NCBI GenBank assembly: GCA_029560415.1
Contig: JAKQKY010000362.1
Coordinates: 27,703 to 91,702 of the forward strand
From: Bacteroidota bacterium
GTDB lineage: Bacteria; Bacteroidota; Bacteroidia; Chitinophagales; Chitinophagaceae
Reading direction: 5' to 3'
DNA length: 64,000 bases
In this document: positions 29,023 to 59,600 of the stretch, one piece after another
Layout: the number at the start of each line of letters is the position of its first letter
Numbering within the stretch: the stretch's first letter is position 1
The notes under the pieces: generated by a model
What the model was told of the DNA's origin: nothing
Databases searched by the model: none
Seen by the model: the letters and a program-made list of their open reading frames with translations, nothing else
Translations under genes and position numbers: made by a program

Positions 29023-30228
29023 ATGAAATTGATTAAGCCTATCCCATTGTTGAATTGGAAAAACTGGTTGCAGCTTATGTTGCTGACCCTACTGCTTTTT
29101 TTTGCATTCCTTTTTTACAATAATGGCAATTTTGTTTTAGACGGAGAAGAAAGTCTGCTGACCAGGATGGATATCGGCCGGGAAATGCTCCTGCCCAAAA
29201 CCTACAAAGCGCCTTATCGTTTCATATTCATCAATGTGGGTAAAGATCTTCAACTTACAAAAGATGATTACGGAGCGGATAATGTGATTACCGACCGTGA
29301 AAAACTGGCGTCCTTTTTTCAACTGCTCAACAATCACAATAAGCATAAGTATCTGTTAGCAGACCTGGTGTTCGATCTGCCTGCAGACAATGACAGCCTG
29401 TTGGAAAAAGAATTGCCCCGGTTGCAAAAGGTTATTTTTCCGAAACACCTGGGCGATTCGGGACTTTTGCCTTCTGTCTTTTCAGTTCCTTCTGCCATCG
29501 CCGATTATAATACCAGCAATAAGAAATTCAGCAAGTTCAGGCTGATGTATGGTGATTCGCTGAAAACGTTGCCGGTGGCCATTCACGAAGCACTGGAGGG
29601 TGTAACATATAAGGTTAAACGCGGATCGTTGTATTGCAATGGTAAATATAACCTGCATACCATACCTCCCCGGTATTTTATCAGGCCCTACCAATTGCAG
29701 ACCGCAAAGCAGTATCCTTATTTCAACCTGGGTGATCTGCTGGTACTCGCCAACGATAGTACTTTTTATGACCAGTTCCTGGAAGACAGGTTCATTGTGC
29801 TTGGTAATTTTGATACTGATATTCATATAACTCCGATCGGGAAAATGCCAGGAGTGCTCATCCTGCTCAATACCTATCTTTCTTTGAAGGATGGCAGGGC
29901 TCAGCCCTCTATCGCCTGGTTCACCATGATTTTTGTAATTTTCTTTATCATAAACCTGTATGTATTTTTTGGTAAGAAACCTGAACCTAAAAAGACGGAT
30001 CATAAAACCTGGTGGCAATTGTTCATATATAACCTGTTGAATGGGATCCTTGCCAATTTTGTATCCATCGCCGGGTTATGCCTGATGATCACGATTCTTT
30101 CAGATTTTATTTTCCATATTAAGCCATATACATTTATTATATTTATGTATATTATAATATGGCAAGGCATTTTAAAATATTACCAGGTATGGAAAAAGCA
30201 ACAACAACCAGCGCAAAAGTCAGCCTGA
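29023..30228 (+). CDS. CHASE2-like membrane sensor protein without a recognisable cytoplasmic output domain
   Basis: N-terminal TM, extracytoplasmic FIFINVGKDL...LLADLVFDLPADNDSLLEKEL...FIVLGNFDTDIHITPIGKMPGVLILLNTYLSL, then 2-3 TM helices at the C-terminus. Start placed at the internal ATG. Confidence 0.7.
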   Translation: MKLIKPIPLLNWKNWLQLMLLTLLLFFAFLFYNNGNFVLDGEESLLTRMDIGREMLLPKTYKAPYRFIFINVGKDLQLTKDDYGADNVITDREKLASFFQLLNNHNKHKYLLADLVFDLPADNDSLLEKELPRLQKVIFPKHLGDSGLLPSVFSVPSAIADYNTSNKKFSKFRLMYGDSLKTLPVAIHEALEGVTYKVKRGSLYCNGKYNLHTIPPRYFIRPYQLQTAKQYPYFNLGDLLVLANDSTFYDQFLEDRFIVLGNFDTDIHITPIGKMPGVLILLNTYLSLKDGRAQPSIAWFTMIFVIFFIINLYVFFGKKPEPKKTDHKTWWQLFIYNLLNGILANFVSIAGLCLMITILSDFIFHIKPYTFIIFMYIIIWQGILKYYQVWKKQQQPAQKSA

Positions 30229-31016
30229 TCCTTTTTGTTGGTCTTTTTATCTGTTTCAGTTCCCTGGCCCAGGAGATCTATTTTGTAACACTGGTCAAAG
30301 GCGACATAAAGAAAAATAATGCAACAGCAGTTAAAGTGGGCGATAAGATTCCGTTCCAGGAAAAGCTTGTTTTTGCCAATAAGAACTGCAAAATGATCCT
30401 GCTTCATCCTCAAAAAGGACGTTTTGTGGTAGAGCCTGGAACCATTACACCCCAGGCGACCGGCGAATACTTTGTTTACCTGAAAAGCAGTCTCCATCTC
30501 AGCAATGAAAAATTAAAACTCAGTTCACGTGGGGACGCCGACCTGGATGAATTCTTTATCACTAATCCTTCTGTTAATAAGAACCTATTGTTTGTAGGTG
30601 ATACCAAGATCGCCCTGGATAATTCGAAGTACTTGATCAAAGACCCGGTAAATGATTTCTTTTTTCTTCAATACACACCGGCGAATGGCAAACCGATGAA
30701 TAAGAAACTCACGGTAACGCATGATAGCCTGTTGATCAGCCGGTCAGATTTTATGTTCAACGGCGCAGAACCTGCAGAAAATAGCGAAGTGAAAATAGGT
30801 TTCATGCAATACTATTCAACCGAGAAAAAGATGACCAGGATCGCTTCCTTTTCACCGGTATTCATGAGCATAGCAGATTGTAAAGCCATCATCGCAGCCA
30901 TTCAGCAAACCATTTCCGATAAGGATAAAGCTTTCGAAGAGGTGCTCACGCAGTTGTATTATAACTACGGCAAGCCAGATAAAGCGAGCATGAAATTGCT
31001 AAGCGAACAGCGTTGA
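30189..31016 (+). CDS. Secreted hypothetical protein, start overlaps the CHASE2-like gene
   Basis: Signal peptide LILFVGLFICFSSLAQE; overlaps the 3' end of the upstream gene by 40 nt. Confidence 0.7.
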   Translation: MEKATTTSAKVSLILFVGLFICFSSLAQEIYFVTLVKGDIKKNNATAVKVGDKIPFQEKLVFANKNCKMILLHPQKGRFVVEPGTITPQATGEYFVYLKSSLHLSNEKLKLSSRGDADLDEFFITNPSVNKNLLFVGDTKIALDNSKYLIKDPVNDFFFLQYTPANGKPMNKKLTVTHDSLLISRSDFMFNGAEPAENSEVKIGFMQYYSTEKKMTRIASFSPVFMSIADCKAIIAAIQQTISDKDKAFEEVLTQLYYNYGKPDKASMKLLSEQR

Positions 31017-31051: not shown

Positions 31052-33250
31052 ATGCGAAAGTTTATTATCCTGATTCTCCTTTCTGGTTGTGTGATTCAAT
31101 ATGGCCAGGCTCAATCCAGGTTTACGGGTAATCTTCAAAAGGTTGTCAAAATCCAATTTCATAAAGGATCAAATTTTAAAGGCAGCTTTACCCAAACAGG
31201 CCAAACTGAATGGACACAAACCAATAACCTTGGCACAACTATTTTCCAGGAAACCAGTCGCAGCAATGGTAAAATATTTCTAAAGATCTCCGGCGTAGAA
31301 TATTATTTTGATTTAAATGAAATGCGGTGGTTCAAGATAATGGGTAACAGGTTGACCAGTTTCATTGCATACATCGACGGGATAGAAGAGGGCTCTATTG
31401 CCAACAATGCTAACATAGCCAATACATTTATCAAAGTGCCCGATAAAAATCCTGTAACGGTAAAAGACTTTACAGATCGGGCTAAATTATATGAAGAGCG
31501 GAGTGAACTTTCGTTGGCCATAAGGGATTACACTTCTGCCATCCAGATGTCTTCCGGTTGGGAATTGTTGATCAAAAGAGCTGGCCTGTATGAAAAAGCC
31601 GGTCAGATAGAGGATGCAAAGGAAGATTATGAAACAGCGGTGGATTTATACCCCAATGAGTTCACGTATACGAACCGTGGTATTTTTCGTTCAAACAATG
31701 GAATGCCGGAAGAAGCACTATCAGATTTTAAAAAAGCCCTTGAAATAATGCCCGGTGATTATTGGGCGATGGGTTATATCGTAATCCCTTATATACAACT
31801 TGGTGAATTTAATCTGGCAGCTGAATCTTTAACAAATTATAAAGCTAAGTTTGGAAGATCCATGTGGGGATCAGATTTTTATCGTTTTTTTACGATATAT
31901 CTCGAGGCTGTAGAATTTATTGCGATGAATAACTTTTATGCTGCAGAATTTAAAATTAAAGAAGCTGAGAAAACATACTTTGAACAACGTAATGCGGGTG
32001 GTTTCAAAGAAATCAGGGATGCACAAAAAATGCGGTATGCCGATATCCTTTCATTAAAAGGTTATATCTGTGAGCAGATGAAAAAACCTGATGAAGCCAA
32101 AAAATACTATACTCAATCACTGATCATCAATCCAACACAAACTAGCGTGAAGGCAGGTTTGAGCCGACTTGTAGATCTGCGAAAAAATCTGTCTGCAAAT
32201 GATCAAACTGCCCCCGAGATCAATATCCTGGAACCGGCAACAGAAAAAACGGTTAGCATTGAATCTGCCAATAAAGCCGGTTTTTTGCTTATAAGAGGCA
32301 AAGCGATAGACCAGGCAGGCATTAAAAAGATACTGATCAATAATATTCCTGTAAACGTAGAAGAGAATGGATATTTTGAGAAAAAAGTTGAATTAAAAAT
32401 CGGCAGCAACGACTTTTCGGTACTGGCAGAAGATAATAAGGGCAATAAGTCTTCGCAAAAAATAAACATCCAGGCAGTTGCAGCAAAAGTAAAACCTGAA
32501 GTGAAAGAAGATATTTCTCTGGATATACCTGAATTGGAACAAGATGCTGTTTTTCATGCTGTACTGATTGCAGAAAATGATTACCGGGATGATGAAATAC
32601 CCGATCTTAATGGCCCGGCAAAAGATATGCGCAGAATATATGCATTGCTAACGGAGACGTATACCTTTGATCCTAAGAATGTAGACACCTTTGTGAATGC
32701 TTCCCGCCAACAGATCCTGGAGAAGCTTATTATAAAAACAAACCAGTTGAAAGAGAAAGACAATCTCTTTATTTTTTACGCAGGGCATGGACAGCTTAAG
32801 AAAAAAGCTGATGCACCTGAATCAGGATTTTTGGTTCCCAGTGATGCAAAGTTTAATAAATTGGAAACCTATATCAGCAGTGAAGACCTTGTAAATACGA
32901 TTAAGAATTGCGATGCACAACATATCCTGTTTACAGCAGATGCCTGTTTTGCAGGAGCATTATTCCGAAGCCTGCCTTCTGATGCGCCAGACCAGGTGCA
33001 GGAAGCATACCGTGATAAAAGCCGCAAACTTCTGACCAGTGGTAACCGACAATCGGTACCCGATGAAAGTGATTTTATGAAATATTTCAGCAATGCACTT
33101 CATGGAAACCAAAAGCACTATGTTACGGCTGAGCAATTGGTTGATTCTTTTAAAAATGAATACAATTCTTCATCGCATCAACGCCTGCAATATAAACCGA
33201 TCCTGGGGTCTGATGAAGGTGGCGCTTTTGTATTTATTAAAAGAAAGTAA
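31052..33250 (+). CDS. Secreted TPR-repeat and caspase-fold (peptidase C14-like) protein
   Basis: Signal peptide; TPR-like region ~31480-32170; caspase core HAVLIAENDYRDDEIPDLNGPAKDMRRIY...FIFYAGHG (His codon 32786)...LFTADACFAG (Cys codon 32945). Confidence 0.88.
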   Translation: MRKFIILILLSGCVIQYGQAQSRFTGNLQKVVKIQFHKGSNFKGSFTQTGQTEWTQTNNLGTTIFQETSRSNGKIFLKISGVEYYFDLNEMRWFKIMGNRLTSFIAYIDGIEEGSIANNANIANTFIKVPDKNPVTVKDFTDRAKLYEERSELSLAIRDYTSAIQMSSGWELLIKRAGLYEKAGQIEDAKEDYETAVDLYPNEFTYTNRGIFRSNNGMPEEALSDFKKALEIMPGDYWAMGYIVIPYIQLGEFNLAAESLTNYKAKFGRSMWGSDFYRFFTIYLEAVEFIAMNNFYAAEFKIKEAEKTYFEQRNAGGFKEIRDAQKMRYADILSLKGYICEQMKKPDEAKKYYTQSLIINPTQTSVKAGLSRLVDLRKNLSANDQTAPEINILEPATEKTVSIESANKAGFLLIRGKAIDQAGIKKILINNIPVNVEENGYFEKKVELKIGSNDFSVLAEDNKGNKSSQKINIQAVAAKVKPEVKEDISLDIPELEQDAVFHAVLIAENDYRDDEIPDLNGPAKDMRRIYALLTETYTFDPKNVDTFVNASRQQILEKLIIKTNQLKEKDNLFIFYAGHGQLKKKADAPESGFLVPSDAKFNKLETYISSEDLVNTIKNCDAQHILFTADACFAGALFRSLPSDAPDQVQEAYRDKSRKLLTSGNRQSVPDESDFMKYFSNALHGNQKHYVTAEQLVDSFKNEYNSSSHQRLQYKPILGSDEGGAFVFIKRK

Positions 33251-33381
33251 AACTTGCTGATTCTGTAAATTATAGTTATCTTTTCTCTAATATGAAATGG
33301 GCTCTTGGCCTCTCTGCATATTTTATTTAAACAGAATACCGGGATCTCCTGAGAACTTATATAAAACATAAGTAGATCATT

Positions 33382-34641
33382 ATGCTTAAGAAAAGTATCG
33401 GCTGGCATTCAAGACTTATTTTAGTAATGCTGGCTACCATTTCCCTCCATGTATCGTATGCCCAGTTTACCATGCAGCAAAAAAAGCCACCGCCAACGTA
33501 TAAAGGCAACCTGGATGCGGTGGTTAGTGTTAAATATGGAGCCATTATGTTATCAAAGAAAGTAAAGGGGCAATTTTTGATGACCGGTGATCACGAATGG
33601 ACACAATATGGTGGAGACAGCAATGTTATCTGGCGGGAACTGGTTCGCAAAGACAATGGAATTTTACTGGTAGATAATACTGGCGAAAAACAGGTTGAAT
33701 TGGACCTGGCAGAGATGCAGGTGAACAAGGTCGGAAAAGGAAGTGGAACTTCCATCATGCACGGGATCAAGGAAGTGAAGGAAGGTGTTTTGCCGGGAGA
33801 GCAACCGAATACAGAAATGGCCAACCAACCAGGGACGGATATCAATAATCCTACTTCACCATCGTTCACACAAAGCCCGGTAAAAGAAGCAGAGATCATA
33901 CCGGATATCCCTGAGATGAAAGAAACCCCGGTATTTCATGCCATCCTCATTGCAGAAAATAATTATGCTGATAAAGGATTCAATAGCTTACCCGGTACGG
34001 TGAGGGATATGCGAAAATTGTATAACCTGCTTACCACGTCATATTCCTTTTTACCCGGGAATACCGATACACTGGTAAATGCCAGCCGGGAAAAGATTCT
34101 GAGCACGCTCAATGCCAAGACCAAGAAGTTGACTGAAAATGATAATCTCTTTATCTTTTATGCAGGGCATGGTTGGGTGAAGCCTATTGCGGATGCAGGC
34201 AGCAAGGAGGAAGGATTCCTGATTCCCTGTGATGCGGTAAAAGATGATGAGATCACCTTCATCAACAGCGATGACATTGTACGTATTCTTAACAGGGGAA
34301 GCAAGGCAAAACATATTTTATTTACTGCAGATGCCTGTTTTGCAGGTAGCCTTTTCCGTGATGTAACATCTGATGCGCCACTTACTGTAAAAGATGCCTA
34401 TAAGGATAAAAGCCGCCGTTTATTGTCGAGTGGTAACCGGCAAACCGTTCCCGATGAAAGTGAATTTGTAGCTAACCTGGAACGGGCCCTTCAACAAAAT
34501 CAATCAAAATACATCACTGCCGAACAGCTTGTAGATGGCTTTAAACAAAAGTATATGGAGAAAACAAATATGAGGTTACAGTATTATCCGATCCAGGGGG
34601 TTGGCGATATGGGTGGCCAGTTTGTATTTATTCATCAATAA
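33382..34641 (+). CDS. Secreted caspase-fold (peptidase C14-like) protein, paralog 2
   Basis: Signal peptide; HAILIAENNYADKGFNSLPGTVRDMRKLY; FIFYAGHGW (His codon 34168); LFTADACFAG (Cys codon 34336). Confidence 0.9.
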   Translation: MLKKSIGWHSRLILVMLATISLHVSYAQFTMQQKKPPPTYKGNLDAVVSVKYGAIMLSKKVKGQFLMTGDHEWTQYGGDSNVIWRELVRKDNGILLVDNTGEKQVELDLAEMQVNKVGKGSGTSIMHGIKEVKEGVLPGEQPNTEMANQPGTDINNPTSPSFTQSPVKEAEIIPDIPEMKETPVFHAILIAENNYADKGFNSLPGTVRDMRKLYNLLTTSYSFLPGNTDTLVNASREKILSTLNAKTKKLTENDNLFIFYAGHGWVKPIADAGSKEEGFLIPCDAVKDDEITFINSDDIVRILNRGSKAKHILFTADACFAGSLFRDVTSDAPLTVKDAYKDKSRRLLSSGNRQTVPDESEFVANLERALQQNQSKYITAEQLVDGFKQKYMEKTNMRLQYYPIQGVGDMGGQFVFIHQ

Positions 34642-34673
34642 TTCAATTCCAGGTATTCAATAAATATATTGTT

Positions 34674-35963
34674 ATGAGATCTCATTTATCATCCTTCATA
34701 AGTTTATTACTGTTGATCATTACTATCAACTACGGTTATGCGCAAACAGACCAGGAGCAACTTGATCAAAAGATGAAAGAATTTCAGGCAGCATTCGCAA
34801 ATGCCGGGAAATATACGGGTGTACAGGCAAGTGAAGTGATCAAGGTTACCTATACTTCCCGCAAGTTCAATGGAAACTTTACAAAAACAGGGCCCGGTAC
34901 CTGGATTGAAACCAACCCTGAAGGAGTTTTTAATCTCTATGAAACCAAACGCCAGGCAAGGGGTGAGATTTGCCTGGAAGATACGGCCCGAAATAAGAGA
35001 TATTATATTGATCTGAATAAACGGGAGATCAGCAGGAGCAAGATCGGGAAATTCGTTTCTCTTTCACTTGATTATTATATCAGCAAGATCCATAAAAGCA
35101 GCGACCAGGCAAATCCGGTAAATCCCGATACCAGGAACCTGGCACAGGATCCAAAACAGGCTACTCAAACAGCACCCGTGACATCGAAGCAGGATATGAT
35201 CAAAACAGGTAGCAATGAAACATTTGATATACCCGAACTGAATAAAGCTCCTGTGTATCATGCCATATTGATAGCTGAGAACAAGTATTCGGATAAGGCC
35301 TTCAATTCTTTGCCGGGCACCCTCCGGGATGTACGTAAATTATACAGCCTCCTTACAACACGCTATACATTTGAACCCAATAATACAGATACCCTGGTAA
35401 ATGCTTCGAGGGAAACGATCCTGAGTATACTCAATGCAAAAGCAAAATCCATGACTGAGAATGATAACCTGTTTATATTTTACGCGGGACATGGATGGGT
35501 AAAGCCTTATAATGACGGAAGCGGAAAAGAAGAAGGATTCCTGATTCCCTGCGATGCGGTAAAAGATGATGAAGTAACTTTTATCAACAGCGATGATATC
35601 ACCCGCATTTTTAACCGCGGTAGCAAGGCCCGGCATATTTTGTTTACGGCAGACGCCTGCTTTGCGGGTAGCCTTTTCCGTGATATTGCTGCGGATGCAC
35701 CTCTCACTGTGAAGGATGCATATAAGGAAAAAAGCCGCAAGCTGTTATCAAGTGGTAACCGGCAGGCTGTTTCTGATGAAAGTGATTTTGTAGAATACTT
35801 CAGGCTGGCCCTGCAGGAAAACAGGTCTAAATACATTACTGCGGAACAATTGGTCGATGGATTTAAAAAAGGTTATATGGAGAAGTCGAATATGTCATTG
35901 CAATATTATCCGATCCAGGGAGTGGGAGATATGGGCGGTCAGTTTGTATTCACCAGGCGATAA
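34674..35963 (+). CDS. Secreted caspase-fold (peptidase C14-like) protein, paralog 3
   Basis: Signal peptide; HAILIAENKYSDKAFNSLPGTLRDVRKLY; FIFYAGHGW (His codon 35490); LFTADACFAG (Cys codon 35658). Confidence 0.9.
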   Translation: MRSHLSSFISLLLLIITINYGYAQTDQEQLDQKMKEFQAAFANAGKYTGVQASEVIKVTYTSRKFNGNFTKTGPGTWIETNPEGVFNLYETKRQARGEICLEDTARNKRYYIDLNKREISRSKIGKFVSLSLDYYISKIHKSSDQANPVNPDTRNLAQDPKQATQTAPVTSKQDMIKTGSNETFDIPELNKAPVYHAILIAENKYSDKAFNSLPGTLRDVRKLYSLLTTRYTFEPNNTDTLVNASRETILSILNAKAKSMTENDNLFIFYAGHGWVKPYNDGSGKEEGFLIPCDAVKDDEVTFINSDDITRIFNRGSKARHILFTADACFAGSLFRDIAADAPLTVKDAYKEKSRKLLSSGNRQAVSDESDFVEYFRLALQENRSKYITAEQLVDGFKKGYMEKSNMSLQYYPIQGVGDMGGQFVFTRR

Positions 35964-35982
35964 AATATAGATTTATACAAAT

Positions 35983-36016
35983 AAAAAAATCCCCGTTAGA
36001 AGCGGGGATTTTTTTA
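35983..36016. terminator. Bidirectional terminator between the convergent caspase and tectonin genes
   Basis: aaaaaaatccccgttagaagcggggattttttt: A-tract, hairpin, T-tract. Confidence 0.9.
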
Positions 36017-36032
36017 TGTCAGCATTTATTCT

Positions 36033-37157
36033 TTAATTTTTTCCTGCAAAAATTTTTCCGGCTTCATTTACCACCCAGGCGTTCCCGTTAGGCGCTACGG
36101 AGATGTGGTTTGCCCCGCCGGGGACCTTATTCCAATCGCGGCCATTGAACTTGTAAATGCCATAACCGCCGCCTTCTTTATTGGTACCGATCACCCAGGC
36201 ACTGCCATCTGCTCCAACGCCAATATCCCTGGCGCCTCCAGGTAAATTGTGCCATTGCCCGGTATTTGTTCTTCTGAAAATACCACCCCCGTCATTCACT
36301 ACCCATGCCAGGCCATTGTTGTCAACGGCAATCCTGATGGCACCTCCATCGGTTTTTTGCCATCCGTTACCATTATACCTGAAAATTTCAAAGCCTCCAC
36401 CAACAGGGGTTGTTCCAATCACCCAAACGGTTCCATCGCTGCCGATGCCAATATCCCTTGCCAGGCCGCCAACTTCTTTCCATCCGTTTCCTTCCCTCCG
36501 GAATATCTGTCGTTTATCATTCAGCACCCATGGTGTACCGTTAGGATCAACCGCAATGCGAACGGCACCACCATCCACTGCATCCCAATTAGAACCGTTC
36601 CAGTGAAAAATGCCATATCCGCCATTAACCGAGTTGGTGCCGATAATCCAGACAGATCCATTAGCGCCGATTCCTATATCGGATGCAGCACCAGAAAGTT
36701 GACTCCATTGGAAGCCTGAAGATGATTGCTGCTGTTGGCCTTGGTCCTGGATGACTGGCTTTATCACCTGGTTATGTGGTTGCTCTGGCTCTTTTGCATA
36801 GTCAACAATATAAGCTTCTCTTCTGCCCCGGGAGTCTGTAGCGTAAATCTTTTTTTGGAATAAGTCAATCTGTACATTTACCTGCCTGGAATCATCTCTC
36901 AAATAGATACTCCATTCATCCCTGCTTTGTTCTGTATAATAATTTCTACCCTGGACTTTTGAGCTCACTATTGTATACATTTCTTTCCATTTATTCCCCC
37001 CAACCTGCATAAACAATCCTTCAATTTGTCTTCCAGGTGTATAACACCATACATTGGTGGCCCGGTAAGCTTTGATCTGTTCCTGGGCCATGCCCGATTG
37101 AATAATGCAGGTGATAAATACTATCACAAGCATAAGCCTGTTAATGTTTTTTTTCAT
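36033..37157 (-). CDS. Secreted tectonin-type beta-propeller protein
   Basis: Signal peptide; repeats such as GAASDIGIGANGSVWIIGTNSVNGGYGIFHWNGSNWDAVDGGAVRIAVDPNGTPWVLNDKRQIFRREGNGWKEV. Confidence 0.88.
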   Translation of the reverse strand: MKKNINRLMLVIVFITCIIQSGMAQEQIKAYRATNVWCYTPGRQIEGLFMQVGGNKWKEMYTIVSSKVQGRNYYTEQSRDEWSIYLRDDSRQVNVQIDLFQKKIYATDSRGRREAYIVDYAKEPEQPHNQVIKPVIQDQGQQQQSSSGFQWSQLSGAASDIGIGANGSVWIIGTNSVNGGYGIFHWNGSNWDAVDGGAVRIAVDPNGTPWVLNDKRQIFRREGNGWKEVGGLARDIGIGSDGTVWVIGTTPVGGGFEIFRYNGNGWQKTDGGAIRIAVDNNGLAWVVNDGGGIFRRTNTGQWHNLPGGARDIGVGADGSAWVIGTNKEGGGYGIYKFNGRDWNKVPGGANHISVAPNGNAWVVNEAGKIFAGKN

Positions 37158-46308: not shown

Positions 46309-46544
46309 TGCTAGCCATAATCTCTATAGAAAATCCCCCCATTTACTCCATTTATTACTATCGGAACCCTGTTTTCTGACAAACCCTAATTTGTTCTGAA
46401 CAGCATCATTTAGATCCGAATTCGCTGGCTTTTATCATTTCATTGATTATTTAGTTCAGCTTCTTTATCCCGTTGATTATACCCCTTACACATTTGTCTA
46501 TTTAATTGAATTGTGGCTTTAGCCTATCATTTAAAACTAAGGGT

Positions 46545-49500
46545 ATGAAAACAAGTTTACCACTTTTAAAACTTCAAGGAGTCATTAACGGTAAAAATGT
46601 AGTGAAGAATGTTCTTGAAATAAAGAGAACATTACTGATGCAAACACGGCAGATCAAATTTATTTTGGTCATGTTGATTTTATTGACTGGTATGGGTAAC
46701 CAGGCAGAAGCCCAGTTAGGGAATCTTTGTTTTTCTGCAACTACGGGAACCTATACTTACCTCGGTGTTGGATCTACCGCCGTGAACGGTATTGAGCAGG
46801 ATGATAATAATGTAATCAACATTCCGATCGGGTTTACTTTTAATTATCTCGGTACCAATTTCACGACCGGGTCAGTAAGTTCAAACGGATGGTTTTCTTT
46901 TGCCAATACGGATCCTTCAAATGCAAATTCTAATTCGAACAATATTGCTGTAACCACTCCCAGTACTTTGCTCAGGACATTGTTCCCATTGTGGGACGAC
47001 CTGGATGGTGCCGGTGGAATCGCCAGTTACCAAACAACGGGCGCTGCCGGTAGTCGTGTATTTACCATGGAATGGAGAAACTGGCAGTGGAATTATAACT
47101 CCAGTGCTGCAATATCTTTCCAGGTAAAATTGTATGAAACTTCTAATATAATTGAATTCAGGTACAGGCAGGAAGCTGGTGCAGTAAATACATCCGGATC
47201 AGGATATTCTGTGGGAGCTTCTATCGGGTTAAACGACGCAACCGGTGGCAGTACCCATTTTCTTTCTTTAAATAATTCAGGTGCAGGCCCAACAGCCAGT
47301 ACTACAGTGGCTACGAATAATATCACCTCTAAACCTGCGACTAATCAAATATATCAGTTCACTCCGCAGGTAGCACCTACCATCTCTTTATCATCGGGTG
47401 CAGGAACAAATGTTCAAACTTTTTGTATTACAAATGCCCTCGGCAGCATTACCTATTCTGTAGGTGGCGGCGCAACAGGTGCTTCTGTTTCCGGCCTGCC
47501 GGCAGGAGTTACGGGTACTTACTCTGCGGGGGTGTTTACCATCAGTGGTACACCTACTGCTACAGGTATATTTAATTATACCGTAACAACTACGGGTACA
47601 TGTAATGCGGTGACAGCTACAGGTACCATTACGGTACAGGCTAATTCAACCATCAGCCTTAGTTCTGCTGCCGGTACAGCCAACCAAACAAAGTGTATCA
47701 ATACTGCGATCACAAACATCACATATTCTTTAGGTGGTGGTGCTACCGGCGCCACCGTAACTGGTTTGCCGACCGGCGTTAGCGGATCATATGCAGCGGG
47801 TGTTTATACAATCAGCGGGTCTGCTACACAAACCGGTGTATTCTCTTATACGGTTACCACAACAGGGCCTTGTACGAATACGTCAGCAAGTGGCAGTCTT
47901 ACAATTGATGAAGCTTCAACCATTTCGCTATCATCGGCTCCTGGTACTAATGTTCAGTCGTTTTGTATAGGAAGTACCTTAACTGATATTACTTATTCAA
48001 TCGGTGGAACAGCCACAGGTGCTTCTATTACTGCCGGTAGTTTGCCAACAGGTGTTACCGGTTCATACGACGGTATAGGAACCTTTACAATTAGCGGAAC
48101 TGCAACTTCAGCAGGTACATATAATTTTACGGTAACTGCAACGGGTACCTGCCCGGTATCTTTAACCGGAACAATAACGGTTACAAGTAACGCTACTCTT
48201 AATTTTACATCTGCAGTAGGTACAAATGCACAATCACGTTGTGTTAATACTGCCATTACCAATATTACATACCTTGTAGGTGGAAGCGGTACCGGCGCAA
48301 ACGTTTCTGGTTTGCCTGCTGGTGTTACCGGCTCTTACAATGGTGGTACAAAAGTGTTTACCATCAGTGGAACACCGACGGTTACAGGTCCATTTAGTTA
48401 TACGGTTACCACAACAGGACCTTGTGTTAATGCTTCATTGGGCGGAACCATCACAGTCAATCCTTTACCAGCTGTGTTTTCAGTAACAGGTGGTGGAGCT
48501 TATTGCTCAGGTGGTGTTGGTGTTCCGGTTGGTTTATCGGGCTCTGCAAGCGGTATTAATTACCAGTTGAAACTGGGTGCAGGAAATGTTGGTGCTCCTG
48601 TAGCAGGAACGGGTTCTGCAATCAGTTTTGGAAACCAAACTACTGCTGGTACATACACAGTGGTAGCTACAAATACTGTTACAACTTGTACCAGTACCAT
48701 GAGTGGAAGTGCAGTTGTTAGTATACATAGTTTGCCGCTTGCAAATGCCGGTGCAAACCAGGTGATCTGTGCAGCAGGTTCAACTATATTGGGAGCATTC
48801 CCGCCGGCTTCAGGTGGGGCAGGGTCTTATACTTATGTTTGGACAGGTTCTGGACTGAGTTCAACTAGTGCTGCCAACCCGGTTGCAACGCCAGCTTCAT
48901 TTCCTGCCAGTTATAGCCTGGTAGTTTCAGATGCAAATGGATGTAGCTCAGCTGCGTCTACTGCTACCGTTAGTGTAGGAACAGCAACCAAGAACTGGAT
49001 CGGAGATGGTACTGGTGGTGCTGGTCCGAACGCTGATTTTAATAATCCACAGAACTGGTCACCAGCCGGTGTTCCGGGAAGCTGTAATGATGTAAATATG
49101 AATTTAGACATCTCAAGTATTTTTGATTTTGGTGGAAGTACTGTGGTATCATCGCTTAGTGCTAATACTACAATCAAATCATTGAATATACAGATTAGTG
49201 GTTTCCTGTTCTTAAGTGGTGGATCAAATTTCAGGCTTGATGCAGGTACAAGAACATTGACTGTTTTAAACAATACAATTCTGAATGCAGATGCAACTTC
49301 ATTTTTTGCAGTACCTGCCCGTGCATATATCAGCGTTGGCAATGGAGGTACAGTAGTTTACGGAGGTAATCTTACAACTACAGTCAGCAATGGCTGTACG
49401 GTGTATCCTTTTTATGCAACCACCAACAATACGGGTAAATTTTATGTAAATGCAAATGCAACGCTGGGTGGGGTAGGTAACGATTTTGGAAATAAACCTG

Positions 49501-52500
49501 CACAGGTTATCTTCAACGGAACCGGTACACAAACCCTTACTCAGAATTCTGGTACACAAACCATCTTCCTTGGAGTAACGTCAACCGATATAGGTGAAAC
49601 CAATTCACCTACGGTTGTAATGACCGGTGCAGGAACAGGTGGTTTCAGGAACCAGGGTAACCTAAACGTATATACGAACGCTACTTTGGATATCGGCAGC
49701 CAGGTTTTCAACAGGAATAACGCTGGTGGTAGTCTTAACCTGAGTGCAGGTTCATTCATGAAACTGGGTAAGATCAGCGGAGGTGTAGCAGCAAGTAATT
49801 TCCCGTTGAACTATACAACATATAATTTCAATGCTACCAGTACGGTAGAATATAACGCAACAGCGCCAAACCAAACAGTGGTTTCAACACCTCTTTACGG
49901 TCATTTAACGCTTAGCAATGCAGGAAACAAGAATGCCAATGGTAATATTAATGTACAGAAAAACATTACCATTCAAAGTTCGGCCATCTTCACCGGAAGT
50001 ACTTATACTATTTCATTGGGTGGAAACTGGACAAACTACGGCCAGCTCGGTTTCCTTGAACAAACCAGCTCAGTTGATTTTACCGGAGCTACTGCTCAGT
50101 CAATCAATACCACCGGTGGCGAAATTTTTTACAACCTGAGAAAATCAGGTGCGGGAACAACAACGTTATTATCTGACGCAGCTGTTCAGGGTGCAGGAAC
50201 ACCTTCTTTTACTTTGTCTGCAGGTACATTTGATGCGGGTACACGTACTTTTAACAGTACAACAGGAGCCTTAAATATTTCGGCAGGATTACTTAAACTG
50301 GCAAAATTAAATGCCGTACTTCCTGAGTTTGCCATTGCTACTTATAATATCACTGGCGGATCAATTGAATTATACGGAAATGGTAACCAGCAATTCCGTG
50401 GTGGACGTGCTTACAGGGATTTGTTTTTCAGCAATACAGGTAATAAAACGGTAACAGCTGATGTGCCTTCTATTACAGGTACCATTACCATTTCAAATAC
50501 GGCTGTTTTAGATGCGGATGTTTATACGGTTGGTGGTGCAGGAACAAATCTCACCATGACAGATTTGTCAACTTATAAAACGGCAGGTACCGGTACAAGG
50601 CCGGATGTGTTGGGTGTGTATACTTTGGGAACAGGAACTACCCTGGAATTCAGTAACAACTCACCACTATTCACACAAGATGTCCGCTTAGGATTACCAC
50701 AATTTTATCATATTGCTGTTTCAGGATCTAATGTGGCTAATCCCGATCCTGCTGTTGGTATTCAAATTCAGGCAGGTGGAAGTTTCACTGTTAAGAACGG
50801 TGGTATTTTCAAAGTTGGAAATGCAGATGGTTTTGCAGGATCAACTACAACCGCAATTGACAACTCAACCAATCCATCCATCATATTGGAAGATGGTTCT
50901 ACCATTGAGTATTTTGGCGGAGCGGCTGGTACAACTCCACAAACAATTTCAAATACAATGCCTTATAAAGGGTTTGCCCTTTCTGGTTCTTCTGTTAAAA
51001 CAGCACCTTCCGGCACACTCAGCATTCAAGGTGATTTTACAAATCATAGCAGTGTGTTTGCACACAATAACGGAACAGTATTGCTTAATGGAACTAGCCT
51101 GCAGCATTATATTTCAACAGGTACTCCATTACAGTTTTACAAGTTAACTGCCGATAACCCTGTGAATGTGCAGGTAGACAATGACCTGGTTGTACTTAAG
51201 GAATTTTCTTTGGGCACAGCAGGTAAAGTAAACATGGCAACTGGCCACATAACCCTGAAATCTGATGTTAACAGCACCGCCAGGGTTGCTACGATCAATA
51301 CAACAGATGCACTTACTTATGGTACTGGTGGATTTATCATCGAAAGATATATTGCTGCCGGAACTACCGTTGGACATCATTCAAAATCATGGCAGTTACT
51401 ATCGGTACCGGTTAATGGCACACAAACTATTAAAGCAGCATGGCAGGAAAGTGCGGCTTCACCAAATGCCAACCCGGTTCCAGGATATGGTACACAGATC
51501 ACCAGTAACGCTGGTGGAAATGCAGCTGCTTCTGCTGCGCTTGGTTTTGATGTGTATACGCCTGCCGGACCAACTGTAAAAACATACAATGCTTCAACCA
51601 ATAATTGGGATGGAATAGGCAGCACCAATTCAACCAGCATTGCTAACCCTAAGGGATACATGGTGTTTGTGAGGGGCGACAGGGGTGTTACTGCATTTAA
51701 CCAGTTACCTCAGCCTACAACATTACGCACAACAGGTAAGCTTTATGCACCAAGTTCTTTGGCTGCAATTGCGCCCCCGGTGATCAATGTGTTGCCAGGT
51801 AAATTTGAAACGATTGGTAATCCTTATGCTTCTGCGATTGATTTTACCATGATCAATAAACCCGCTGCACCAGCAGTTGATGATAAGTTTTATGTATGGG
51901 ATCCGTTACTTACAGCTAATTACAACGGACTCGGCGGATATCAAACAATCAGTGCTGTGAATGGATGGAAGCCTATCCCGGGCGGTACTGCAAACTATGA
52001 TGCGAATGTAGCCAGTACGATCATTCAATCAGGCCAGGCATTCTTCGTGTATGCGTCTGGTGCAGGTGGTGCAGTGACTTTTACGGAAGCAGCCAAAGTA
52101 ACAAATGATGCAATGGTTTTCCGCCAGAACAATTTGAATGGTAATAACAGTTACCTGCGGTTGAATCTTTTCAATGCGGCTTCTGATTCAGCTAAATTAT
52201 CTGATGGTAATGTTGTTGCTTTCGGAGAAGGGTATAGCAATACCGTAGATGCAGATGACGCTCTAAAAATTGCGAATACAAATGAAAACTTCGGCATCGG
52301 AAGGTCGGGTAAATACCTGGCACTTGAAGCTAAAAGCCCGGTGATGTCTACAGATACAGTTTTTTACCAGTTTTATAATTTGAAAAAACAAACATATCGT
52401 TTACAGTTTAAACCGGAAAATATGCATGCCACAGGTATGACAGCATTCCTGGTTGATAAGTTCGCGGGAACCTCTACAGTGCTGAGCCTGGAAACGGTAT

Positions 52501-53144
52501 CTAATGTTAATTTTACCATTACAACTGATGTTGCGTCTTCCATGGCAGACAGGTTCTATGTTGTTTTCAAAGCATTGGCACCAGTACCGGTTACATTCAC
52601 CGGAATTACCGCAAACCGCCAGGATGATCAATCGATCCGTGTAAACTGGAAAGTTGATAATGAAATCAGCATGCAGCAATTTGAAGTGGAAAGAAGTGCA
52701 GATGGAAGGAATTTTACCAAACTGCATACAGCTCAGCCCTTAAACAATAACGGGGGATCTGCTACTTATACTCATGTTGATGTGAAACCAATTTCAGGAG
52801 ATAATTTTTACAGGATCAAAGCTTTGAGCATCGGTGGACGTATCCAATATAGCTCTATTGCTAAAGTTAGCGCTGTAAAAACGGGAAAAGATATCAGCGT
52901 ATACCCTAACCCGGTAGTTGACAAATCAGTTCATGTTTATTTCCGTAACCAGGAAGAAGGAACTTACGCTGTTCAACTTACCAACAAACTGGGCCAGGTT
53001 GTTTACAATGGCCAGGTGCAGGTTAGCGGAACCCTGGTGCATAAGGTTATCGCATTAGGAAAAGCCGTGAGCAGTGGTCAGTATCAACTTACCATTACTG
53101 CACAAAATGGTGCCAGGACCATTCAAAAACTGGTCATTGAATAA
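46545..53144 (+). CDS. Large T9SS-secreted surface protein/adhesin with Ig-like repeats
   Basis: About 2,200 aa; signal peptide [17 protein letters not shown]; four Ig-like repeats 47379-48470; C-terminal [37 protein letters not shown]. Start placed at the internal ATG. Confidence 0.88.
47379..48470 (+). repeat. Four coding tandem Ig-like repeats (about 90-92 aa)
   Basis: Unit starts at 47379, 47649, 47919 and 48195; consensus TISLSSAxGTNxQxxCINTAITxITYSxGGGATGAxVxGLPxGVTGSY. Confidence 0.85.
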
Positions 53145-53213: not shown

Positions 53214-53679
53214 GTAGCAAAAACAATGGTCAGATCTTTCCACGGAATTAGTTGTAATATATTGAAAATCATATCGTTAAAAAATCATATAATTAATGCT
53301 TCGAAAAGTTGCATAACTGGAATCTGGAAAGTATATTTACAGCATATGTTTTTGAGGGAAATTAATCCCTGAAAGCTAACCTGCTCCCATATCTTAGAAA
53401 ACGCCACTCCAATTCAATTATCTTTTTTTATCCTTTTAATTCTTTATATAATAAAGAATATCTCCAATATCTTTTAGGAATTTCCGTAACCTGTCCATCC
53501 ACTTCTTAAGAAACGCTGCTGTTTTGATAACCCTAATCATTCAAAACGCTATTCCTTTTCAAGTCCGATACTGCAGATCACTTTTTGATCTGATTACAAG
53601 CATGAGGCCAAATTTACAGTTACATGAATCTGTTTCTGAATTATTACGTAACAGCATTTGACAACATTAATTGAAAGGT

Positions 53680-56600
53680 ATGAACAGCGATTTACATTAT
53701 TTTACTCCAACCACAATCAGGATTAAATTCAAAAAGAAAAATGGGGATTCGGTTGAGGCAAAAAGGGGTGGCATAAACTTTTTACATTCTTCAGGAATGG
53801 GAAAGCATATAAGCTTATTGCTGATCATGCTGTTTAGTATATCGTTTACGCTTACTGCACAAACCAATACATGGGATGGTAGCAGCAGTGCCAACTGGAA
53901 CACTGCTACCAACTGGTCGCTGAACCAGGTGCCAACAGCTGCCCATGATGTAGTGATTCCGAACGGTATTACCGCAAATATTACAGTGAATACGGCTGCC
54001 GTATGTAAAACCCTTACCATGAACGGGGGTACAACGGCGAATACACTTACCATTAATAATCCCAATAGTCTTTCAGTTACCGGAGCCATTGCAATAGGTG
54101 CGGGTACTGGTGCGGGTGATAATAAGATCATTGCAGTAGGTACAGGCACCCTTTCCTGTGCTTCGGTGAATATAACGGCTACGGGTAGTGGTACCAGGAC
54201 ATCAGAGATTAGTATTGCAACCGGAACGGTAAATGTTACCGGAAATATTTCCATGAATGATGCCAACGATTATATCCGTTTTACCGGAGCAGGGCTTCTC
54301 AATGTAGGCGGTAATATTACCGGAGGAAACCTTATCCCATCTACCGGAACGGTGAACTGCAACGGAAGTACTGCTCAAACAATTACCGGTGCTACCACTT
54401 CTTCATTTTATAATCTCATCATCAATAAATCAGCTGCTGCCAACACGGTTACAAGTACCGGTAATGCGATGACAGTAGCCAACAACCTTACCATCACACA
54501 GGGAAACCTGCTGCTGCAAGCCACCAATGCCAATTATACGATCAGCAACGACCTGGTTATACCGGTAGGGGGTACCTTAACCCATAGTGTAAACTGGGAT
54601 GTCGCCGGCAGGTCGTTAAACATTGGCGGAAATGTGATCATCGATGGATTGTTCACGTACACTGTACGCTCACATGTGCAAATGTCGGGAACCAACAAAA
54701 CCATTCGCACAGGTCCTTTGCCTTCAGGTTTTAGTATTCTCACACTTGTGAATACAGCCGGTACGATAAGTGCCAACGGCCTGGTAACAGTGAATGATAA
54801 TTTCTGGGCGGCTTTTAATGTAAATGGCGGAACATTTAGTACCAACGGGCAAACGGTTAATGCCAATGCTTCGTTGTTAAATTCGGGTGGAACAATATTA
54901 GTGAATGGTGGAAATTTAAATATTACGGGTGGTCTACAGGTTGGTACCGGAAGCCTGAATGGAACCATGACGATCAGTTCGGGAACCGTAACCACAGATG
55001 GATTTACGATCGGGAACGGCACCCGCACAGGTGTGGTTAATCAAACCGGTGGCACCACAAATATCAATGGAAACCTGTTGATCAATAGTGCCTGCACTTA
55101 TAATTGTACCAATGCGCCTGCGATCAATATTTCCGGAAACTGGACGATCAATAATACAGGAGTTTTTGCCCCGGCAATTTCAACAGTGACATTTAATAAC
55201 GCCGCTGCTTCGCAGGATATTAACGGTACTGCCACCACGAAGGAATTCTATAACGTAACCATTAACAAGCCAGGGCAGACTTTAATGGCATCTGGTTCTA
55301 CCAACAGCTTGCATCTTGATGGTTCATTACAGTTAAATACGGGAACCTTCAATGCCGGTACGGCAACCAGCATAAGTATTGAGGGAGATTGGATAAATAA
55401 CGACAGCTTTATTGCGGGCCCGGGAAATGTAACTTTTAATGGTTCCGCTATTCAACAAATTTCCGGTAGCACGGCAACACATTTCAATAACCTTACCATC
55501 AACAATAACAATAATGTTCAATTGAATGCAGTAGATGCTTATGTTGATGGATCTACCGGGGCATTGCATTTTGACCAGGGAAAACTAGTGACAGGTTCAC
55601 AAACCCTGGTATTGGGAAATGCAGCAAGTATCACAGGTGCGGCAAATGGAAAATATGTCTTTGGTAACCTGCAAATGGGCGTGGCCCTGGGTGACCAGGT
55701 AAAGTTTTTTGCGATCGGCGACGGATTGTATTTTGCTCCGGTAACTTTAACGATCAACCAGGCCATCAATGCTGGTTCTATTACTGCATTCACTTTGGGA
55801 GCAGAACATCCTTCCATCGCGACTTCCTCTATTGATGAGAGCCAGGATGCAAACCGATATTGGACGCTGGTAAACAATGCAGTGATTTTCACAAATTATG
55901 ATGCGACTTTTCAGTATCATTTATCTGATGTAGATGCAGGCGCTAACACGGCAAATTTCATCCTTGGTCAATACAATGGTTCCTGGAATTATCCGGCGGT
56001 AGGGATCATCGGTGTTTCTGATATCACCAGCATCGGGTTAACAGATTTTGGAGAATTTTGCGTTGGCGAGGGTGGTGCTTCAGCACCTACGATTGCAACA
56101 GACCCTGCCGACCAAACATTTTGCAGCAACAGTGTGGCCAGTTTCACGGCAACGGCTAATAGCAGGCCGGTTTCTATTGTGCAATGGGAGATAAGTACCG
56201 ATGGCGGAGGAATCTTTACCCCGCTTAGTATGGTAGCTCCTTATTCAATGACTACATCTTCTGCGGCGGGAATTACCAGTTCTACCTTGTCAATCAATCA
56301 ACCTCTAACAGGGTTTAATGGGCATCAATTTAGAGCAGTATTTACCAATAACCGTGGAAACATAACTTCTGCAGCGGCTATTCTTACCGTTAGTACGGCT
56401 GCAACAGCAGATGCAGGGATTCCGCAAACGATATGTGTGGGATCGGATGTCACCCTGGCCGGAAACATAGGGGGAACGGCTACCATGTCTACATGGTCTG
56501 CCGCTTCAGGATCTTTTTCAGATCCTGCTTCACTAACGTCTACGTATACACCGGTTATTGGCCCGGGTAATATAATGTTAACGCTTACTACAGATGATCC

Positions 56601-59600
56601 GGATGGCGTAGGGCCCTGTATTGAAGCAGTGAGTACCGTTTTGATCAGTATAGATCCGCCAGCGACCATTACGGCTGGTCCGGATAATGTGATCTGTTCA
56701 AATGCAACTGCTACCATGGCGGGTTCTTTCGGAGGTGGAGCAGGCAGTGCCACCTGGTCAACCAGTGGAACAGGTAGTTTCAATAATAATACGCCTACAG
56801 CAGTGTATACGCCTTCAGTTGCGGACATCGCTGCGGGTTCGGTAATATTAACCTATACAACCAATGATCCTGCAGGTCCATGTAATGCAGTAAATGCTTC
56901 CATGACACTTACCATAAATCAAGCGCCTACGGTGAATGCCGGCGGACCTCAAACAATTTGTTCGGGATCAACCATTGCTTTATCCGGAAGCATTGGTGGG
57001 GGAGCTACCAGTTCTACCTGGAGTGCACCGAGTGGTTTATTTTCTGATGCCGGTTCACCCGTATCGGATTATTCTCCATCCATCAGTTCAGGTTCAGTAA
57101 CGTTAACGCTTACCAGCGATGATCCGGATGGGCCCTCGGGACCTTGTTCATCCTCTGTAAGTACAGCTTTATTCACTGTTAATACTTCGCCAACAGCTTT
57201 AACGGTAACGCCTGCCAGCGCAAATGTTTGCCAGGAGAATATCATTAATTTGTCGGCAAGCGGAGGCAATACGATCATAACATCAAATGCTTCATTTTCT
57301 TCTGGTGTTGTTAATGTGGCCATACCAGATAACAATGCTGGCGGGGCAACTTCGATTTTGGCAGCTTCGGGTATTCCTGCAGGTGCTACCATCAACAGCA
57401 TCAGTGTTAACTTTAATATTCTTCACAATAATGTTGGTGACCTGGTCCTGAATATAAAAGCACCGAATGGAAATGTATTGAACCTCGTAAACCGTAAGGG
57501 TAATACCGGAAATAATTTTACAAACAGTACAGCTGCAAGCAATGGGGTCACCTTATTCAGTGCCGGTACAGCTCCCTTTAACGGCACGTTTGCTGCCGAC
57601 GCCGTTAATGGAGTAGGGGCTACAGGTCAGGTGTCTAATGTGATCTTGTTTTCGGGATTATATAGTGTGCCTAATGGCAACTGGACATTCAGCGCAAGGG
57701 ATGCATCCGGTGGAACATCAGGAACCATCAGTTCATGGTCAATCGTTATCAATTGGACGGCCCCGGTACAGGATCCTGTAACCTGGACACCCGTGACGGA
57801 TCTTTATACAAATGCGGCTGCAACAGTTCCATACCTGGCGGGCCAAAATTTTGCTTCGGTATTTGTTAAGCCTTCTTCAAACGGCAATATTATTTATACT
57901 GCATCAGCAACATCTGCCAATGGTTGTACAGCTTCCGGCACGGCAGATCTTACAGTGATCCCGGCGCCTTTGATCAGTGCATTACCTGCAACACAAAGTA
58001 TATGTTCTCAATCGTCTATTACGCAGATTGATATCACTAACCCGAATAACTTACCTGGTACCACATTTAGCTGGACAAGAAATAATACCATAAACTTAAC
58101 AGGTATCGCTTCCAGCGGAACAGGCAATGCCATTTCCGGAACGCTGACCAATAGCACAAATAATGCACAGACAACCATATTCACCATCACAGCGGATGAT
58201 GGAACCTGTACTACAACGCAAACTGTTTCGGTGACCGTTAATCCAAAGCCAACGGTTAATGCTACACCGGCGACTCAAACGGTTTGTTCAGCTATCGCCA
58301 TCGGTACCATAACCATCACCAATCCAAATGCAGTAGCGGGTACAACATTCAGCTGGACACGCGACAATACGGTTAATCTTACCGGTATCGCGGGCAGCGG
58401 CAGCGGTGCAAGCATAACAGGAACGCTTACCAATACGAGCAATATTCAGCAGGTAACTACTTTTACGATCACGGCCACAGCAGGTACCTGTTCGTCAGTG
58501 ACTTCGGTAACGGTTACGGTTAACCCAAAACCAACCGTGAGTGCTACACCATTAACTCAAACACTTTGTTCGGCAGTTGCTTTTGGCCAAATAGATATAG
58601 CCAACCCGAATTCGGTAGCTGGAACCTTATTTACGTGGACAAGGGATAATACAGTAAACCTCACCGGTGTTGCTGCCAGTGGAAGCGGGGCCGCAATCAA
58701 TGGTACGTTTGCTAACGCAACCAATGTGCAACAAACAACGAATTTTACGATCACGGCAACAGCGGGTGCCTGTACGTCTACAACCACTGTAAATGTAAAA
58801 GTGAACCCGGTTCCAGGCGTGAACAGTATACCCAATGCTTCTTTTTGTAACAATGGAAATGGCTCCGCCATAAATTTTGGCAGTAATGTGCCCGGGGCAA
58901 CATTTGCCTGGACAAGTACCGCCAATGTTGGTTTTGGAACCAGCGGCAATGGCAATATTCCAGCCTATGTTGCAGCCAATGCACCCGTAACCGCCACCGT
59001 GAGTGTAACGGCAACGGCTAATGGCTGTTCGGGCCCTGTAAGAACATTTACCATCACCATCAACCCATTGCCAACGGTAACGGTTAGCGCCGATTATTGT
59101 ATCGTGCCGGGAAAAGTAAGGCTCACCGCCAATCCATTGCCTGCAGGATCATATACTTATTTATGGTCAACCGGAGCTACCACGCAGGTGATTGATGTGG
59201 ATATTGCAGGAAGTTACACAGTGACAGTAACGAATACAAATGGTTGTAAAGCGACAAACAGTATTTCTATCGCAACTGAACTCGCCGTAAATGGTAATTT
59301 TGAAGCCGGGAATGTTGGTTTCACATCGGGATATACTTATGACCCTTCGGCAAATGGACTTTTTGCACCAGAAGGCAAGTATGCTGTTAATAATAGTCCG
59401 AATTTTAACCACAATAATTTCTGGGGAACCGATCATACTACAGCTTCGGGCAGAATGATGATCGTGAATGGTATCGTAGGACCAACCGTTTGGCAACAAA
59501 CCGTTGCCGTTCTGCCTAACACTACTTATTATTTTTCCGCATGGGCATTAAGTATGAATAATGCTGCACCATTCGCACAATTACAATTTAGTGTGAATGG

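Follow-up and report, generated by a model that had tools for sequence, protein, structure and literature searches.

Three caspase-type proteins and a tectonin-repeat protein, encoded within 6 kb of a Chitinophagaceae genome, carry the same homologous module behind their signal peptide-like N termini. Their genes lie in the stretch of DNA analyzed here, 64,000 nucleotides that we call the window, for which a sequence-only reading had proposed a segment shared by the four proteins (31118-37090). The segment is found at these positions, in real open reading frames (ORFs) and with the quoted motifs as described. Homology of the four modules is established, since a profile of 138 modules from other genomes, holding no window row, selects exactly these four proteins among the 690 window ORFs of at least 40 amino acids (aa). 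In this decisive test, the E values were 2.4e-21 for the tectonin protein, 3.0e-11 for caspase 3, 8.1e-8 for caspase 2, and 9.6e-7 for the TPR-caspase, with the next ORF at 0.98. That two different architectures share one homologous front module is thus borne out by the profile and, as described below, by the predicted fold. Of the two outcomes named beforehand as contrary to it, a lack of significant similarity between hidden Markov models and differing predicted folds for the tectonin protein and the caspases, neither was observed.

Evidence for homology and layout of the four genes

Pairwise alignment showed the caspase segments to be clearly related to each other (shuffle z 9-14), and the relation between the tectonin segment and the caspases to be merely suggestive (z 4.7-5.4, a score reached by 2-7 of 2000 shuffles); at a z of about 5, pairwise alignment alone is not decisive as proof of tectonin-caspase homology. 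A first search, in which a five-row alignment was run against 399 genomes of the order (E 0.01), found relatives in 18 other genomes, some of them in tandem, the weakest of these matches being doubtful. An alignment without the caspase rows (A4), scanned against GTDB contigs, gave 113 relatives, of which 80 were kept. Window rows were used in the first search for canonical modules, which leaves a weak circularity in the main profile; this is lessened by a profile of 93 modules from loci not assigned to Bacteroidota, which selected the same four ORFs at about 1e-6 or better (1.1e-6 for the TPR-caspase module), with the next ORF at 0.49 and, among the reversed window ORFs, nothing under 1.6. Comparison of hidden Markov models, with the caspase alignment set against 13 canonical modules, was significant as well (probability 94%, E of 1.5e-7), and the tectonin-protein module is 43% identical to a module of another genome.

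In each of the four proteins, the signal peptide-like segment is followed by the module. The TPR-caspase gene (31052..33250, + strand) continues with TPRs (Pfam TPR_1, 5.6e-23), a Glucodextran_B-like (Ig-like) domain (Glucodextran_B, 1.2e-7), and a caspase domain that matches NCBIfam model NF047832 at an E value of 1e-18, under the curated cutoff; its module is divergent, and the best-scoring stretch (31127..31336, +) corresponds to the first two thirds of it. Caspase 2 (33382..34641, +) and caspase 3 (34674..35963, +) are each composed of signal peptide, module, linker, and caspase domain, the last matched by Pfam Peptidase_C14 (4e-13 at residues 186-363 of caspase 2; 3.3e-13 in caspase 3). 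Their modules, also divergent, were located by the other-genome profile at 33508..33780 (+) and, with AlphaFold2 in addition, at 34815..35108 (+), respectively. The dyad motifs GHG and DACFAG are present in all three caspases, and an alignment of caspase 3 with metacaspase-4 places the His and Cys motifs in register. By family profile and His-Cys dyad, and for the TPR-caspase also by its 54% identity to caspase 3, the three proteins are assigned to the caspase type, and proteolytic activity is predicted for them. The tectonin-protein gene on the opposite strand (36033..37157, -) encodes a signal peptide, a canonical module with the sequence EQSRDEWSIYL (36792..37073, -, located by the other-genome profile and AlphaFold2), a Gln-rich linker, and tectonin repeats (36045..36725, -), which match Pfam Tectonin (PF19193, 1.7e-23) in four stretches and correspond to a lectin-like beta-propeller. 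Given these repeats, binding of glycans or lipopolysaccharide (LPS) is putative. A homologue of the repeats that has no module (L141) is 49% identical and belongs to another family of the same order.

Upstream of the TPR-caspase gene (29023-31016, +) lie overlapping genes for a CHASE2-like membrane protein (E of 4e-4, under the cutoff) and for a 285-aa protein without family, which may share one operon with the caspases; at locus L133, a TPR-caspase gene is followed by a homologue of this 285-aa protein (E of 5.7e-15). Farther along, an ORF of at least 3443 aa (53671-63999, +), preceded by a 2212-aa ORF (46506-53144), runs past the end of the window. Promoter and terminator scans found sites no more numerous than in shuffles.

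Predicted fold, hairpin motif, and divergence of the caspase copies

The module is predicted to be a small, eight-stranded antiparallel beta-barrel of about 85 residues, a call that rests on the strand pattern and on weak barrel-type matches. In the AlphaFold2 models of the tectonin-protein module (mean pLDDT 92.2, pTM 0.84) and of the caspase 3 module (mean pLDDT 90.0, pTM 0.81), the two that were modelled, eight strands follow each other in identical order, an agreement that is partly built in since the underlying alignments overlap, each holding all four window modules together with canonical rows. Against solved structures, Foldseek returned nothing significant (best E of 0.085 and 0.17, TM about 0.5 or less). 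The weak best matches were lipocalin and fatty-acid-binding barrels for the tectonin module, and those of the caspase 3 module included PliC (E of 0.17, TM about 0.45); a MoaF-like barrel in a viral model library (TM 0.59, E of 0.018) was not significant either. A sequence search of the PDB found no relative of the module, and we regard the matches to TFAM (E of 0.64 and above) as chance.

Canonical modules keep W57, E76, R79, D80, W82, S83, Y85, L86, and D98 (tectonin-protein numbering) in 96-100% of cases, and the D-x-W-S of the R-D-x-W-S hairpin is kept by 96-99% of them. All four window modules share W57, E76, R79, L86, and D98; every canonical residue is present in the tectonin copy, while the three caspase copies have lost D80, W82, S83, and Y85, so that of the R-D-x-W-S-x-Y motif they retain the R alone. 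In the model of the tectonin module, D80-W82 form part of the turn that connects strands 4 and 5. Should ligands be bound at this exposed turn, the caspase modules would not bind what the other modules bind, which is the main argument against a ligand common to all four. The common ligand that had been claimed for the four proteins is therefore not supported: since the caspase modules lack D-x-W-S and are far more diverged than the caspase domains, a ligand common to them and to the tectonin module appears unlikely from sequence.

The caspases themselves are close relatives, and on them the sharing of the homologous module, claimed as a shared front end, is partly or even largely a matter of paralogy. 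Caspases 2 and 3 are 77-79% identical in the caspase domain, the TPR-caspase is 54-56% identical to them, and the caspase of locus L131 falls close, so that the three may not make up a clade of their own. Module identity between caspases 2 and 3, by contrast, is 23%, with a dN of 0.95 versus 0.15 for the caspase domains, synonymous sites being saturated in both. In the TPR-caspases of two relatives (L131 and L132), the signal peptide leads directly to the TPRs, with no module in between, and none was found in the fetched stretch of eight related caspase loci. As related loci are without it, the simplest account is a gain of the module in the window lineage, with loss elsewhere as the other possibility. 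The caspase copies sit on very long branches of the module tree, the terminal ones reaching 4.9 changes per site, and group weakly (86/65); the tectonin copy is found not with them but among modules of other genomes, at weak forks. Local capture of the module by the caspases from the tectonin gene gains no support from this tree, in which branches are long and forks weak.

A widespread module family and its possible role

By sequence, the module of the tectonin protein ranks among the canonical members of an unnamed, widespread bacterial family, to which the caspase modules belong by profile and predicted fold. The family consensus (L049-L128) reads G-x-F-x-Q-x-G-x-x-x-W-x-E...F-x-E-x-x-R-D-E-W-S-V-Y-L-x-D-x-S-R-x-V-x-I-Q-L-D-L. 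The module is covered by none of the Pfam, NCBIfam, or PADLOC models, the string RDEWSVYL was absent from the papers searched, and plasmid and phage collections held no relative of the tectonin module. Going by their record titles, the 80 module loci are distributed over at least eight phyla (Bacteroidota, Pseudomonadota, Planctomycetota, Verrucomicrobiota, Cyanobacteria, Deinococcota, Chloroflexota, and Gemmatimonadota), with one to six copies per protein. Proteins of 664-1553 aa in records of Bacteroidota, Sphingomonadales, and Anaerolineae carry tandem arrays of three to six modules (L054, L063, L073, L098, and L110), and three other loci (L025, L030, and L034) encode proteins that appear pore-forming-like by eye. 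An N-terminal hydrophobic segment is present in 63 of 78 module ORFs, compared with 10 in shuffles, which predicts that most of them are secreted. Among the 56 proteins scanned for partner domains, the most frequent were the mannan-binding lectin MVL (9 proteins), SH3_3 (7), and MliC (5), followed by DUF7452 and RicinB (3 each) and by beta/gamma-crystallin and Inhibitor_I36 (2 each); DM9, subtilase, trypsin, FG-GAP, PI-PLC, and TIR were among the single cases.

Fusions with TIR occur in three genomes. In two Rhodocyclaceae proteins (L113:4278-5222 and L121:4284-5222), TIR and module are separated by a hydrophobic segment, in our reading a membrane span, an order that would make them membrane TIR receptors with an extracytoplasmic sensor; the third (L148:1072-1764) is a TIR-module protein from the window's own family. 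Only rarely is the module fused to a secreted caspase or to tectonin repeats. One further caspase fusion, in a genus-mate of the window genome (G015; L152:2683-5241, -), is a second and independent one; its order of signal peptide, caspase, TPR, module, and crystallin differs from that of the window caspases.

We consider the chances about even that the module is an extracytoplasmic recognition module that binds a target at the cell surface or within the envelope, a glycan or an envelope polymer, and in this way positions or gates the domain fused to it. The recognition role, which had already been proposed, draws indirect support from lectin-type and TIR partners, secretion, and tandem copies. 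Under this reading, the tectonin protein would be a secreted protein with two lectins, a canonical module and a tectonin propeller. In the caspase lineage, the module would have been inserted between the signal peptide and the body of the protein and the gene would have been duplicated, and the copies would have kept the fold, lost the hairpin motif, and diverged quickly. The caspase modules would then probably recognize things other than what the tectonin copy and each of the others recognize, or else act as a mere prodomain or positioning element, and the binding of the front module might determine where the secreted caspases are retained or activated. The ligand class, the gating, and any cooperation with the tectonin protein are our inference. 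Several points weigh against this interpretation. The partner lists are circumstantial, their counts being given without background frequency; partners of the MliC and inhibitor type are just as compatible with an inhibitor; divergence of the caspase copies is strong enough to allow for relaxed constraint without any binding; and the caspase-tectonin neighborhood was seen in no other sampled genome. A more far-reaching version, to which we give rather low credence, is that of an undescribed pattern-recognition domain of extracellular immunity or conflict proteins (lectins, secreted caspases, and membrane TIR receptors). In this genome, it would belong to a small secreted system in which three caspases, their sensor modules diversified, and the lectin-like protein might act jointly on competing or damaged cells.

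The window genome (4.49 Mb in 515 contigs) yielded just these four module copies, all within 6 kb, and few genomes of the window's family, 4 of 299, carry the module. From the lengths, we estimate the probability of a chance placement of the tectonin gene beside the caspases at about 1 in 1000 or less, and these low odds favor a real connection. Other module loci had no caspase or tectonin neighbor in the fetched 10 kb, and the tectonin and caspase genes, being convergent, are not cotranscribed. The functional linkage claimed for the convergent pair is thus suggested at most: the four copies within 6 kb speak for it, and their separation on the tree and the missing neighbors elsewhere speak against it.

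It is conceivable, though we think it improbable, that the caspases share the segment solely as tandem duplicates, in which it is degenerating, and that the tectonin gene is an unrelated neighbor with a common module. This would agree with the contrast between conserved caspase domains and diverged modules in caspases 2 and 3, with the loss of the motif in all three caspases, with the convergent orientation, and with a neighborhood that is not conserved. However, the fold-determining residues W57, E76, R79, L86, and D98 are invariant in all three caspases, a barrel is predicted for the caspase 3 copy at a pLDDT of 90 (from an alignment dominated by canonical modules), and the rarity of the module makes a chance neighbor improbable.

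Still less probable, in our view, is a homotypic adaptor, in which binding between caspase and tectonin modules would let the lectin recruit the caspase, in the manner of the effector-associated domains (EADs) of prokaryotic conflict systems. The presence of all copies detected in the genome within 6 kb on two architectures is what such coupling would look like, and EADs on adjacent genes provide a published precedent (PMC7159879). That precedent, however, leads one to expect adjacent copies to be the closest, whereas the tectonin module stands apart from the caspases on the tree, if at weak forks; the conserved hairpin motif is lost by the caspase copies; and most family members are solo or tandem modules whose surroundings, over the 10 kb fetched, hold neither a caspase nor a tectonin gene.

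Similarly doubtful is an inhibitor or prodomain of the MliC/PliC kind, or a protease-inhibitor barrel, which on the caspases would be a propeptide blocking the enzyme until its removal: its position on the caspases, PliC among the weak structural matches of the caspase 3 module, and the MliC (5 of 56) and Inhibitor_I36 (2 of 56) partners fit this idea, but the structural match is not significant, the tectonin module has its best matches in lipocalin and fatty-acid-binding barrels, related TPR-caspases manage without a module, the G015 module lies C-terminal to its caspase, and tandem arrays, some in proteins without a recognized enzyme domain, are unlike prodomains.

Comparison with known systems

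What makes these observations valuable is less the local pair than the module family and its connection with secreted caspases and TIR proteins. An unnamed domain that occurs across many phyla in the company of lectins, proteases, TIR domains, and caspases offers a handle on unannotated secreted proteins and bears on the role of secreted bacterial caspases, and its naming in Pfam would link these proteins. In size and as a small antiparallel barrel, the module is similar to MliC/PliC, lipocalin, and fatty-acid-binding barrels, from which it is set apart by the lack of a sequence match and of a significant match in Foldseek (best E of 0.085). Within the RDEWS module family, the tectonin copy is canonical, whereas the caspase copies are without D-x-W-S-x-Y.

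Prokaryotic caspases with TPRs and an N-terminal helix that is possibly a signal peptide have been described (PMC3501461). With these caspase homologues (metacaspases and orthocaspases, Peptidase_C14), the window proteins share the caspase domain, the His-Cys motifs, the N-terminal hydrophobic segment, and, in the TPR-caspase, the TPR partner; a text search of that paper for partner domains did not turn up the front module. Tectonin-repeat lectins, such as Limulus GBP and human tectonin, include LPS-binding proteins of innate immunity (PMC2707011); the window protein shares their repeats, its own binding being putative, and differs in being bacterial and in its extra N-terminal barrel. Finally, the EADs of prokaryotic conflict systems occur on adjacent genes and have been likened to alpha-helical Death-like adaptors (PMC7159879). 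On NF047832, the window caspases score 57-68 bits against a cutoff of 140 for the EACC1-caspase system, and the EACC1 model has no match in the two upstream proteins. The window module is predicted to be a secreted beta-barrel, in contrast to the alpha-helical, Death-like likeness of EADs, yet the window shares with these systems caspase effectors that are joined to a domain also present on neighboring genes.
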